Positions 33,424 to 39,884 of a DNA stretch of 43,142 bases are shown piece after piece (within the stretch, counting starts at the first letter, position 1; every line of letters starts with the position of its first letter). Source of the DNA: Desulfuromonadales bacterium (lineage in GTDB: Bacteria > Desulfobacterota > Desulfuromonadia > Desulfuromonadales > JACZKF01); NCBI GenBank assembly GCA_029289095.1, contig JARFUG010000021.1, positions 1 through 43,142 of the forward strand, given 5' to 3'. The notes under the pieces were generated by a model. That model was not told the origin of the DNA and ran no database searches. It was given only the letters and a program-made list of their open reading frames with translations. The position numbers and the translations under genes were made by a program.

Positions 33424-33452
33424 TTGACAGCAGATCCAAAGGGGAGTAAAGA
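33424..33452 (+). promoter_or_regulatory. Promoter of the ATP-grasp/GNAT/KamA operon
   Basis: TTGACA (33424-33429), 17-bp spacer, TAAAGA (33447-33452). Predicted start near 33459, leaving a ~150-nt untranslated leader before the ATG at 33608. Confidence 0.6.
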
Positions 33453-33509
33453 AGCGGCAACGGACGCGTTCCGGTGCGGGCACGCATATTGAAGTCAGCA
33501 TAAAAAGCG

Positions 33510-33602
33510 ACCCCTTTTTATAGCCGCCTGCCCCGTACCGAAAGAACCCTTCCGCCGTCCCCGCCGGGGAACTTCTTTCGTCAACAGGCTCAAAAAAGGG
33601 GT
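33510..33602 (+). promoter_or_regulatory. Structured leader that can sequester the first ribosome-binding site
   Basis: ACCCCTTTTT (33510-33519) is perfectly complementary to AAAAAGGGGT (33593-33602), which contains the Shine-Dalgarno sequence of the first ATP-grasp gene. Nested within this 10-bp stem is a second hairpin, CGAAAGAA (33539-33546) with TTCTTTCG (33573-33580), and inside that CCCC (33559-33562)-GCC-GGGG (33566-33569). The layout fits a translational switch. I cannot match it to a known riboswitch class. Confidence 0.55.
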
Positions 33603-33607
33603 TCAAT

Positions 33608-34681
33608 ATGCACGTCGCTCTCGCCTTCAATCTGAGGCGCGATTCCGCTTGCGAGCTGGAATCGTCCGCCGCCGCCGTTTCATCCACTTCCTCCGCCGAC
33701 GATCTCTATGCCGAATGGGACGACATCCACACCATCCAGGCCGTGGAGCGCGCACTCGCATCGCGCCATCGCGTCTCCCTGGTGGAGGCCGACCTCGACG
33801 CCTTCGGCAAGCTGCGCGCCCTGAAGCCCGACCTCGTCTTCAACATGGCCGAGGGGCTTTTCGGAAACAGCCGTGAGGCGCAGATCCCGGCCATCCTCGA
33901 CATGCTGGCCATCCCTTACACCGGCAGCGACCCCGTGACCCTGGGGATCTGCCTCGACAAGCGCCGCACCAAGGAGGTCCTCGCCTGGCACGGCGTCCCG
34001 ACGCCTCGCTTCTCGGTGGTAGAGAGTCTGCTCGAAATCCCCGCGCGCCTGCGCTATCCTCTTATGGTGAAGCCGATCCTCGAGGGATCGAGCAAAGGGG
34101 TGACCGACAAGGCGCTGGTGCGCGATCGCCGTGCTTTGGTGAAGCAGGTCGAGTGGGTCCTGTCGACCTACGGCCAGCCAGCGCTTATCGAAGAGTTTCT
34201 CCCCGGGCGCGAGTTCACCGTGGCCCTGCTCGGCAACGGCTCGTCGCTGCAGGTTCTGCCGATCGTTGAGATCAACCTCGACGCCCTCCCCCCCGGAGTG
34301 AGCCCCATCTACTCCTATGAAGCCAAGTGGCTCTGGGACACGGAGGAAAATCCCCTGGAGATCTTCTCCTGCCCCGCCCCTGTCGAACCGCTTCTTCAGC
34401 GCCAGATCGAGGAGATCTGCAAGAAGGCGTTTCGCGTCCTGGGATGCCGCGACTGGTGCCGCATCGACGTGCGTCTCGATCAGCGCGGACTTCCCCAGAT
34501 CATCGAACTCAACCCTCTCCCCGGCATTCTCCCCCGCCCTGAGCAGAATAGCTGCTTCCCCAAAGCGGCGCGGGCCGCCGGACTCTCCTACGATGCGCTG
34601 ATTCTGAGCGTGGTCGACGCGGCTGCCCAACGGCTCGGCCTCTGCGAGTGGGGGGAGAATGAGAATCGCCGTATCCTTTAA
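33608..34681 (+). CDS. ATP-grasp ligase, D-Ala-D-Ala-ligase-like (first of two)
   Basis: A 357-residue ATP-grasp enzyme joining a carboxylate to an amine via an acyl-phosphate. Motifs: N-terminal LVFNMAEGLFGNSREAQIPAILDML (Ddl-like, ~78-102), lysine of RYPLMVKPILEGSSKGV (ATP and flexible loop, ~150-170), ALIEEFLPGREFTVALLG, and RIDVRLDQRGLPQIIELNPLPG with Mg-binding residues near 290-312. True Ddl enzymes make cell-wall D-Ala-D-Ala, but no mur genes are near, and pairing with a second ATP-grasp, a GNAT and KamA argues for a dedicated pathway. Start: AAAGGGG precedes ATG. It overlaps the next gene by 23 bp. Confidence 0.87.
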   Translation: MHVALAFNLRRDSACELESSAAAVSSTSSADDLYAEWDDIHTIQAVERALASRHRVSLVEADLDAFGKLRALKPDLVFNMAEGLFGNSREAQIPAILDMLAIPYTGSDPVTLGICLDKRRTKEVLAWHGVPTPRFSVVESLLEIPARLRYPLMVKPILEGSSKGVTDKALVRDRRALVKQVEWVLSTYGQPALIEEFLPGREFTVALLGNGSSLQVLPIVEINLDALPPGVSPIYSYEAKWLWDTEENPLEIFSCPAPVEPLLQRQIEEICKKAFRVLGCRDWCRIDVRLDQRGLPQIIELNPLPGILPRPEQNSCFPKAARAAGLSYDALILSVVDAAAQRLGLCEWGENENRRIL

Positions 34682-37254: not shown

Positions 37255-37292
37255 AAAAACTCGGACGAAAATCTTTTCGTCCGAGTTTTTTT
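37255..37292 (+). terminator. Intrinsic terminator of the ATP-grasp/GNAT/KamA operon
   Basis: Arms AAAAACTCGGACGAAAA and TTTTCGTCCGAGTTTTT, 17/17 paired with a 2-nt loop, then T-run. Strong. Confidence 0.92.
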
Positions 37293-37295
37293 CTC

Positions 37296-37324
37296 TTGCA
37301 ATCGCAGCTACATGGATGTATTGT
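37296..37324 (+). promoter_or_regulatory. Promoter of predicted small RNA 1
   Basis: TTGCAA (37296-37301), 17-bp spacer, TATTGT (37319-37324), starting 4 bp after the operon terminator. Confidence 0.45.
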
Positions 37325-37330
37325 ATCGAC

Positions 37331-37398
37331 ATCTGACGGCCGCAAGGCCTCAGTGAACCCCGTACTCTCCCCCCCCTCCGAGTGCGGGGTTCTTTTTT
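37331..37398 (+). ncRNA. Predicted ~68-nt small RNA 1 with C-rich terminator loop
   Basis: No ORF. From the predicted start: a 5' hairpin GGCC-GCAA-GGCC (GNRA loop, 37338-37349), then a terminator with 13-bp arms GAACCCCGTACTC and GAGTGCGGGGTTC (37355-37367, 37380-37392; one G-U) and TTTTTT. Its 12-nt loop (37368-37379) is TCCCCCCCCTCC, similar to the 16S anti-Shine-Dalgarno CCUCC. See the sister RNA 2 with the same plan. Confidence 0.5.
37355..37398 (+). terminator. Terminator of small RNA 1
   Basis: 13-bp arms around a C-rich 12-nt loop, followed by six T. No protein gene lies between it and the previous terminator. Confidence 0.8.
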
Positions 37399-37408
37399 AA
37401 CTTTACCC

Positions 37409-37437
37409 TTGCCCGCTGATACAGTTCACCGTAACAT
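37409..37437 (+). promoter_or_regulatory. Promoter of predicted small RNA 2
   Basis: TTGCCC (37409-37414), 17-bp spacer, TAACAT (37432-37437). Same geometry as the preceding unit. Confidence 0.4.
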
Positions 37438-37443
37438 ACATCA

Positions 37444-37510
37444 TCAATTTGTCCCGGCCCAGGTCGGGAGTTCGCCCCGTGATTCCCCCTCCTTCACGGG
37501 GCATTTTTTT
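37444..37510 (+). ncRNA. Predicted ~67-nt small RNA 2 (sibling of RNA 1)
   Basis: No ORF. A 5' hairpin TCCCG..CGGGA (37452-37469) precedes a 9-bp terminator GCCCCGTGA/TCACGGGGC (37474-37482, 37494-37502) with 11-nt loop TTCCCCCTCCT and seven T. Both loops share CCCCCTCC. Same spacing plan as RNA 1, so the pair looks like a duplicated regulatory RNA unit. Confidence 0.5.
37474..37510 (+). terminator. Terminator of small RNA 2
   Basis: 9/9 paired arms, C-rich loop, seven T. Third intrinsic terminator within 260 bp. Confidence 0.8.
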
Positions 37511-37519
37511 ATCCCGCCC

Positions 37520-37690
37520 CCCGACCCCCCCGGCTCATCGCCCCCCCCCCCTGTTGCACAGAGCGAGGCGACCCCCCCGGCTCTACGAGCCACCCCCCCT
37601 GTTGCACAGGGGGGGCAAAGCCATGTCCCCCCTATGCAATAGGGGGGAAGGCCGCTCGCGGCCAGGAGGTCGCTCCCAACTCCCAACTCC
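37520..37690. repeat. C/G-run palindromes, duplicated block and CAACTCC remnant
   Basis: A ~40-bp block (ACCCCCCCGGCTC.., CCCCCCTGTTGCACAG) occurs twice (about 37522-37562 and 37571-37610). Two palindromes follow: C6TGT-N3-ACAG6 (37594-37615) and C6TAT-GCA-ATAG6 (37627-37647), of the same design as the palindromes inside uvrA. A short CTCCCAACTCCCAACTCC array closes the region just before the YyaL gene. No ORF is supported. Confidence 0.75.
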
Positions 37691-37751
37691 TGTTGCCCCT
37701 TCCCGCTCCGATGCTACTGTTTAAGAACAACCTTCCATCGAAGGAGTCCTC

Positions 37752-39884
37752 ATGGAACGCAACATCTCCCGGGAAGATGCCGTCCTTCGTCTTTCCCGCA
37801 TAGACACCTCCGCCCTTCCTCCCGACGGCGGTCCCGATTTCAACCGGCTGATCTTCGAAAAGAGCCCTTATCTGCTGCAGCATGCAGAGAATCCCATCGA
37901 CTGGCATCCGTGGGGGGACGAGGCTTTCGATCGCGCCCGCAGGGAAGACAAGCCGGTTTTCGTCTCCATCGGCTATTCGACCTGCCATTGGTGCCATGTC
38001 ATGGAGCACGAGTCGTTCGAGGACGAAGAGGTCGCCCGCACCCTCAACCGCGCTTTCGTCTCCATCAAGGTCGACCGGGAGGAGCGCCCTGATGTGGACG
38101 CCACCTACATGACCGTCTGCCAGATGATGACAGGCGGGGGGGGATGGCCATTGAACCTCCTTCTGACGCCGCAACGCACGCCCTTTTTTGCCGCGACCTA
38201 CCTCCCCAGGGAGGGCCGCAGAGGGATGCCGGGGTTCATTCCGCTTCTGGAGAAGGTCGCGCAGATGTGGGCAAACGACCGCGCCCGTCTGGTCCAAAGC
38301 GCCGATGAGGTCAAAAGCGCTCTGGAGAGGCTTCTCAGGGAGGAATACGCCGAAGGGGAACTGGGGGAGACGCCCCTTCGCGGCGCCTTCGACGACTTCC
38401 TCCAGAACTTCGATCGGCAGAACGGAGGATTCGGCGACGCGCCCAAATTTCCGACGCCCCACAACCTTTCGTTCCTTCTGCGCTACGCCCAGCGCACCGG
38501 CGAGGAGCAGGCCCTCAACATGGCTCTTCGGACTCTTCAGGCGATGCGCCTGGGGGGGATCTACGACCAGCTCGGTTTCGGGCTTCATCGCTACTCGGTC
38601 GATGCACGCTGGCTCGTCCCCCATTTCGAGAAGATGCTCTACGACCAGGCGCTGACGGCACTGGCCTGTCTCGACGCCTTCCAGATCAGCGGCGACGACT
38701 TCTTCGGACAGTCGGCCCGCGAGATCCTGGCGTACGTGCAACGGGACCTCGCTGGTCCCGACGGGGGGTTCTGCTGCGGCGAGGACGCCGATTCGGAAGG
38801 GGCTGAGGGGACGTTCTACGTTTGGACGCCCGCGCAGATCGAGGAGATCCTTGGAGCCGATCTCGCGGCGGTCTTTTGCCGCAGCTACGGCATCACCGCC
38901 GAGGGGAACTTCGAAGGCAAAAATATTCCCCATCTGCGCGAGGACCTCGCCGCACTGGCGCAAGAGGCCGGGGTCAGGCTTGATGAACTCGCGGCGACTC
39001 TCGAACAGGCGAGAAGCCCGCTCTTCGAAGCGCGCCAGGGGCGCATTCGCCCTCATCGCGACGACAAGATCATCACCAGTTGGAACGGTCTGACCATCGC
39101 CGCCCTTGCACGGGCGGCAGCGATTTTCGAAGACCGGACGGCGCTCGCGGCGGCCATTTCCGCCGCGAACTTTGTTCTGGAGCGGATGCGGACCCCGCAA
39201 GGGCGGCTCCTGCGCCGCTATCGCGCAGGAGAAGCGGCGATCCCGGCCTTCCTGGAGGACTATGCCTTCTTCGTATGGGGACTCATCGAAATCTACATGG
39301 CCGATTTCGACCCCTCGATCCTCCGGAGCGCCGTGGAGTTGACCGAAGAGATGGAGAAACTCTTCGCAGATGCAAAAGGTGGGTATTTCGACAACGGCGC
39401 CGATGCCGAGGAGGTCCTCGTCCGGGGCAAATCGGCCCAGGACGGCGCCCTCCCCTCGGGGAACTCGGTGGCCGCCCTCAACCTCTATCGCCTCGCCGAC
39501 CTCACCGGCAACGCAAGCTTCGAAAACCGGGCCGAACGCCTCCTTCGCGCCCACCTTCCCCAGGTCGAGCGCTACCCTTCGGCCTTCACGCAGATGCTCA
39601 TCGCCCTCGATTACGCCCTCGGCCCCCGGCAGCAGATCGTCCTCGTCCCCGGCGACGACGAACGTCCCCTGGCGGAGATGCTTCAGGCGCTGCGGCGCCG
39701 TTTTCTGCCCTGCACCGTCGTTGTGCTTCATCGTCCGGGAGACGCAGTCCTGGAAGGCATATCGTCGATCGTGGAAGGGAAAGAGTCCGTTGAGGGACGG
39801 GCGGCCGCCTACGTGTGCATGGACAGAAGCTGCCGCGCAGCGGTGACATCGGTTGCGGAATTGGAAGAGTTGCTCGGGAACTAA
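37752..39884 (+). CDS. YyaL/DUF255-type thioredoxin-fold protein (SSP411-like)
   Basis: A 710-residue two-part protein. The N-terminal ~170 residues are a thioredoxin fold carrying the canonical CHWC (C78-C81) in [20 protein letters not shown]. The remaining ~500 residues follow the alpha/alpha toroid (six-hairpin glycosidase-like) pattern, e.g. [54 protein letters not shown] and [15 protein letters not shown]. The family is broadly conserved in bacteria and eukaryotes (SPATA20/SSP411); its activity is not established, possibly redox or sugar-related. Strong ribosome-binding site GAAGGAG. Stands alone on this strand, followed by a heptamer-array hairpin. Confidence 0.92.

Follow-up and report, generated by a model that had tools for sequence, protein, structure and literature searches.

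The window analysed here is the whole 43,142-nt stretch of forward-strand DNA from a Desulfuromonadales bacterium (GCA_029289095.1, contig JARFUG010000021.1), and all coordinates refer to it. An operon comprising two ATP-grasp genes, a GNAT gene and a KamA-like gene is closed by a terminator at 37255-37290, which sets the two putative small RNA (sRNA) genes that follow (unit 1, 37296-37398; unit 2, 37409-37510) apart from the operon. Downstream of the pair lies a gene for a DUF255 / thioredoxin-like protein.

Anatomy of the two tandem units

The features of the region are as follows.

37255..37290, + strand: terminator of the upstream operon, a 17-nt perfect inverted repeat with a T tail
37296..37324, + strand: unit 1 promoter, -35 TTGCAA, 17 nt, -10 TATTGT (from the sequence; orthologue boxes match)
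37331..37398, + strand: unit 1 predicted small RNA, ~68 nt (from promoter position and terminator end)
37333..37353, + strand: unit 1 5' hairpin CTGACGGCCGCAAGGCCTCAG (fold of the 218-nt region; present in orthologues with differing sequence)
37355..37398, + strand: unit 1 terminator, 13-bp stem (fold; model R1, 58.5 bits)
37409..37437, + strand: unit 2 promoter, -35 TTGCCC, 17 nt, -10 TAACAT (from the sequence; orthologue boxes are better)
37444..37510, + strand: unit 2 predicted small RNA, ~67 nt (from promoter position and terminator end)
37452..37469, + strand: unit 2 5' hairpin TCCCGGCCCAGGTCGGGA (fold; also in relatives)
37474..37510, + strand: unit 2 terminator, 9-bp stem (fold; model R2, 62.6 bits)
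37752..39884, + strand: DUF255 / thioredoxin-like gene (PF03190; Pfam, synteny), a neighbour and not part of the sRNA unit

A sequence-only reading of this DNA had placed two tandem promoter-hairpin-terminator units at 37293-37510, and exact search verifies each element at its position in the window. The RNA lengths of 67-68 nt given in that reading agree with the arrangement of the boxes, assuming a start 7 nt past the -10 box. The terminator loop of unit 1 is UCCCCCCCCUCC (RNA; written TCCCCCCCCTCC in the exact search) at 37368-37379, and that of unit 2 is UUCCCCCUCCU (RNA; written TTCCCCCTCCT in the exact search) at 37483-37493. These loops, 11-12 nt in length, hold the anti-Shine-Dalgarno core CCUCC after a C run and have CCCCCTCC in common (37372-37379 and 37485-37492), a motif that occurs elsewhere in the window three more times on the + strand and three times on the - strand. 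By fold, the loops of the 5' hairpins are short and not C-rich in the sense of the cuckoo RNAs discussed below. The 218-nt region as a whole folds at -81.3 kcal/mol (z -6.1), a value equalled by none of 200 shuffles.

Both promoters are weak and sigma-70-like, with 8 of 12 consensus bases each, and a mechanical promoter scan at 9 of 12 consensus bases reports none. The boxes of relatives are closer to consensus (TTGCAT/TTGATT and TAGAAT/TATAGT). Since the window promoters are weak by consensus, the case for the units rests on comparison with these relatives. The earlier statement that no open reading frame intervenes needs qualification: mechanical ORFs at 37382-37642 and 37449-37724 overlap the region, but they are without support as genes. 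Between unit 2 and DUF255, three C-run-rich short palindromic repeats of REP-like character (CCCCCCTGTTGCACAGGGGGG and variants) are found at 37522-37673, and a hairpin at 37731-37744 (CCTTC-CATC-GAAGG) would cover the DUF255 ribosome-binding site, GAAGGAG.

Conservation across the order and comparison with ordinary terminators

A DNA search of 38 relatives recovers the unit 2 terminator in many genomes at 85-95% identity, and several of these relatives have a unit-1-like match 100-210 nt upstream of it on the same strand. Once oriented, the loci repeat the full anatomy of the window: -35 and -10 boxes, a 5' hairpin whose sequence varies between genomes, a linker of about 4 nt, and a terminator with a C-rich loop (ACCCCCCCUCC in unit 1, UACCCCUCCU in unit 2). 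At E <= 0.1, covariance models of the unit 1 and unit 2 terminators (R1 and R2) have matches in 110 and 117, respectively, of the order's 118 genomes. The weakest among them will be due to chance; strong matches, of 45-73 bits, are seen repeatedly in many family-level groups. When the R1 and R2 lists are combined, the tandem pair with unit 1 first and both units on one strand is present in at least 15 genomes from seven family-level groups (G000, G005, G009, G011, G012, G020, G025, G026, G036, G045, G046, G053, G054, G063 and G080), with a spacing of roughly 90-320 nt. Outside the order, no genome of the phylum sample exceeds 39 bits with R1, and R2 matches in the sister orders of the class are few and weaker, reaching 44 bits at most. 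Among named genomes, 12 records match an exact pattern; almost all carry the names of Desulfuromonadales or their relatives, for example Geothermobacter hydrogeniphilus, Geoalkalibacter and Desulfuromonas.

The flanks of the units are unalignable across the order and the C-rich loop is constant; the orthologues were partly collected by terminator match, so the figures for loop conservation are selected to some extent. Tandem order, promoters, 5' hairpins and loop are all conserved over the order, as expected of the sibling small RNAs proposed earlier. Rfam at its gathering threshold gives no match across the whole window, and the literature searched on sRNAs of Geobacter and its relatives contains nothing on a tandem C-rich-loop family. 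From the sequence comparison, the two units appear to belong to an order-wide, multi-copy sRNA family that is apparently uncatalogued.

The units could alternatively be mere terminators in C-rich intergenic DNA, with loops that reflect composition and have no RNA function. C runs abound in the DNA immediately downstream (37511-37640), and a sequence-only alignment of 29 unit 2 copies shows primary conservation concentrated in the terminator hairpin. RNAalifold on these copies returns a consensus for the terminator only; the 5' hairpin is not recovered because the 5' loop lengths vary, and it was assessed instead by its fold z-score against ordinary terminators. Conservation that followed only the terminators would speak against functional RNAs, and the outcome is mixed in this respect: primary sequence is conserved in the terminator hairpin, and the presence of a promoter and of a 5' hairpin that varies in sequence is conserved as well.

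The comparison set consists of 299 distinct terminator-like hairpins from the fetched loci. A CCC..UCC loop is found in 97 of them, compared with 10 for the mirror motif, and 186 have neither CCC..UCC nor a looser form of it. Loop length is mostly 10-14 nt in the C-rich terminators and most often 3-7 nt in the ordinary ones at the same loci. Promoters and 5' hairpins are features that were unused in selecting the copies, and both distinguish the two classes. The mean promoter score upstream is 8.66/12 for the 97 C-rich terminators versus 5.97/12 for ordinary ones (P ~7e-23), and the mean fold z-score of the 45 nt upstream is -2.48 versus -0.41 (P ~9e-22); the compared hairpins are related rather than independent, so that these P values overstate the evidence, although the effect is large. 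A test free of terminator selection used 28 loci picked by their DUF255 gene alone. C-rich-loop terminators lie upstream in 15 of these loci by a strict rule and, on reading, in two more (G013, G024) with a slightly different pairing register; the remaining terminators in these regions are ordinary. The constancy of the C-rich loop goes far beyond what terminator function needs, and the operon already possesses a perfect terminator of its own at 37255-37290, so that an additional pair is unneeded for termination. We therefore consider it improbable that the units are terminators and nothing else.

Paralogues, location and relation to atoC RNA

Single genomes contain several copies at unrelated places, in which the loop is kept and the stems differ. 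Examples from two genomes of one family read AAGCCCGGTGAC[CCCCCCCCUCC], AGUCCAGCAUGC[AUCCCCCCUCC] and AGACCCGAACCU[ACCCCCCCUCC]. The genome of the window itself has at least one further candidate unit, a third copy at C7:84764 (L124, G000:C7:84300-85100) with a C9UCC loop and a different stem (GGGCCATATCC[UCCCCCCCCCUCC]GGATATGGCCC), as well as a tandem atoC-like pair on contig C38 near 18655 (L127, G000:C38:18400-19000). In nearly all copies, the C run is followed by UCC(U). A constant loop on a changing stem is what selection on the loop predicts; the copies were found partly by their loops, which makes loop constancy supporting rather than independent evidence.

Unit 2 is located upstream of DUF255 in many genomes, and Rfam classes the similar atoC motif (RF01733; Weinberg et al. 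2010, PMC2864571) as probably cis-regulatory. Both observations would suit cis-acting leaders or attenuators of DUF255, with transcripts from the unit promoters either terminating or reading through. However, unit 2 ends about 240 nt short of the DUF255 start in the window, 11 of the 28 DUF255 genes lack such a unit altogether, and paralogues occur at many unrelated loci. In some families, among them f18 and f19, unit 2 is found away from DUF255 and ends ahead of a convergent gene, one encoded on the opposite strand (L010, L013, L015, L070). Where a convergent gene follows, a unit closed by its own terminator cannot serve as that gene's leader. A role as DUF255 leaders thus seems very improbable to us. 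Because the paralogues keep the loop with changed stems and several copies precede convergent genes, the units are best read as free-standing sRNA genes and not as leaders, and the pair as two such genes that are often, although not always, located between the upstream operon and DUF255.

The atoC RNA is the nearest Rfam family, scoring 24.5 bits at 37424-37508 against a gathering cut-off of 50, and by this curated cut-off the window units are not atoC members. Unit 2 nevertheless aligns along the whole atoC model (5' hairpin, then terminator hairpin) and has CCCUCCU in its terminator loop. The two share promoter, leader, 5' hairpin, 4-nt linker and a terminator with a CCCUCCU loop, and they occur in the same order of bacteria. 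In contrast to the window units, atoC has the stem GCCCUGG, the loop frame CUUNCCCUCCUGG, and loci of its own, several of them before a convergent Rrf2 gene. A search with the atoC model gives matches above the cut-off in nine genomes; another 61 have weaker ones, and most of the matches lie at other loci. In the atoC copies, TTGAC and TATAAT-like boxes ~17 nt apart precede a 5' hairpin and a terminator hairpin whose loop contains CUUNCCCUCCUGG; the Rfam consensus itself starts with the -10 box. At four loci (L102, L110, L115, L120) the next gene is a convergent Rrf2 regulator. With its own promoter, its own terminator and a convergent neighbour, atoC looks like a sister sRNA gene, and the cis-regulatory label looks wrong at these four loci. 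The family described here calls the nature of the Rfam entry into question. A further weak match, to anti-hemB RNA (RF02837; 25.2 bits against a gathering cut-off of 49.5), is a generic two-hairpin match without a C-rich loop.

Taken further, each genome of the order might encode as many as about ten sibling sRNAs, with the misfiled atoC RNA among them, that share one anti-Shine-Dalgarno mimic under differing promoters and together provide signal-integrating translational control of a set of mRNAs with G-rich ribosome-binding sites. We offer this wider scheme tentatively, as a possibility that we rate at somewhat below even.

The terminator loop as a candidate pairing site

It seems to us probable that the two units are tandem genes for trans-acting sRNAs whose anti-Shine-Dalgarno loops block ribosome-binding sites. 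Each unit would produce an RNA of ~67 nt, started by its own promoter and ended by its own terminator. The 5' hairpin may guard the 5' end and space the molecule, and the terminator hairpin would expose C4-8-UCC(U) as a single-stranded loop that copies the anti-Shine-Dalgarno core of 16S rRNA. This loop is predicted to pair with ribosome-binding sites containing GGAGG or GGGAG in target mRNAs and thereby block ribosome entry, which is the likeliest mechanism. Hfq would probably sit at the U tail, whose length suffices for this protein, and an Hfq gene is present in 37 of 37 relatives. Having the same loop on different promoters and stems, the siblings could allow different signals to act on overlapping targets. 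The anti-Shine-Dalgarno loops of the sequence-only reading hold up insofar as the loop complements GGAGG and is kept as the stems change; their pairing with ribosome-binding sites is a prediction.

RNAs of this functional kind are known. SmelA075/099 have anti-Shine-Dalgarno loops with variable stems (PMC3927594), UCCC loops of LhrC block the Shine-Dalgarno sequence (PMC4132741), and a C/U-rich terminator loop of RepG pairs with a G repeat (PMC8295292). The cuckoo RNAs of Alphaproteobacteria (CcsR1-4, SmelA075, SmelA099; PMC3927594, PMC10253847) resemble the window units in being multi-copy siblings with anti-Shine-Dalgarno loops on varying stems. They differ in that a single RNA carries CCUCCUCCC in several of its hairpin loops, whereas the window units have C4-8-UCC in the terminator loop. 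The motif CCUCCUCCC is absent from the window loops UCCCCCCCCUCC and UUCCCCCUCCU, and a CUCCUCCC loop is found only in the sibling group L002/L017. CcsR RNAs are moreover DUF1127-linked and cut from one precursor, in contrast to the separate promoters of the window units and their KamA-like and DUF255 neighbours, among which there is no DUF1127 gene.

A cuckoo RNA repeats its motif in at least two loops, which neither window unit does; two C-rich loops in one RNA are found only in G002, G022 and G034. In these copies (L162, L163 and L161, respectively), 5' hairpin loop and terminator loop both consist of a C run plus UCC, and they are closer to the cuckoo design.

LhrC1-5 of Listeria (PMC4132741) are likewise multi-copy, with UCCC in the terminator loop and a blocked Shine-Dalgarno region, but they repeat the UCCC motif in the 5' loop and the linker, belong to Firmicutes, and show no sequence relation. 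RepG of Helicobacter (PMC8295292) also uses a C/U-rich terminator loop as its pairing site; its target is a length-variable G repeat in an mRNA leader and not a Shine-Dalgarno sequence, and multi-copy siblings are not described in that study. What the units have in common with the anti-Shine-Dalgarno-loop sRNAs (RepG, LhrC, RsaE) is an unpaired C-rich loop (UCCC or CCUCC) in a free-standing promoter-to-terminator gene. The functional kind is thus known, and the family is new.

Desulfuromonadales include metal-reducing bacteria, and to our knowledge post-transcriptional control has been little explored in this order. The family provides concrete, conserved candidate sRNA genes with a defined candidate pairing loop. 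It also extends the cuckoo-type and LhrC design, a constant anti-Shine-Dalgarno loop with a variable stem and many siblings, to a further bacterial group.

Targets were sought in the window and across genomes. Within the window, GGAGG lies no more than 30 nt upstream of 3 of the 25 gene starts examined, and neither target prediction in the window nor the G-rich starts across genomes revealed a conserved mRNA target. The signature GGAGGGGG-spacer-ATG occurs everywhere, at about twice the frequency of the reversed control across genomes, as ordinary Shine-Dalgarno use explains. The second ATP-grasp gene (34659) offers the strongest complement to the loop within the window (-20.1 kcal/mol) but was rejected as a target: its G run varies among relatives and falls within the coding sequence upstream.

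The lack of a conserved mRNA target in these searches, together with C runs that extend beyond the Shine-Dalgarno complement, would suit real RNAs whose loop binds a protein, such as a cold-shock-like protein with affinity for C-rich sequence, or acts as an sRNA sponge that captures G-rich RNAs. Yet the UCC(U) end retained in nearly all copies fits pairing with (A)GGAGG, and the proven relatives in kind act by mRNA pairing. A CsrA sponge is unlikely, as the loops have no GGA on the transcribed strand. We judge a protein-binding or sponge function to be unlikely, and Shine-Dalgarno blocking remains our preferred reading.

The first ATP-grasp gene, at 33608, the best target candidate in the vicinity, was also discarded as a conserved target. 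Its start region AAGGGGUU is conserved in 18 genomes, and the leader element AACCCCUUUUUA is equally conserved; pairing within the gene's own leader accounts for the G-rich start, so that the sRNAs are unneeded to explain it. This leader, at 33448-33610 on the + strand, is itself a conserved element of ~150 nt. In the 18 genomes, AACCCCUUUUUA can pair with AAAAAGGGGUU, the ribosome-binding site, through invariant C-G pairs, and further conserved stems are present besides this pairing. An Rfam search of the leader at E <= 1 gives no sensible match. The operon that follows it (two ATP-grasp genes, GNAT, KamA-like) resembles N-acetyl-beta-lysine genes, and the element is a candidate for a riboswitch-like or protein-responsive leader.
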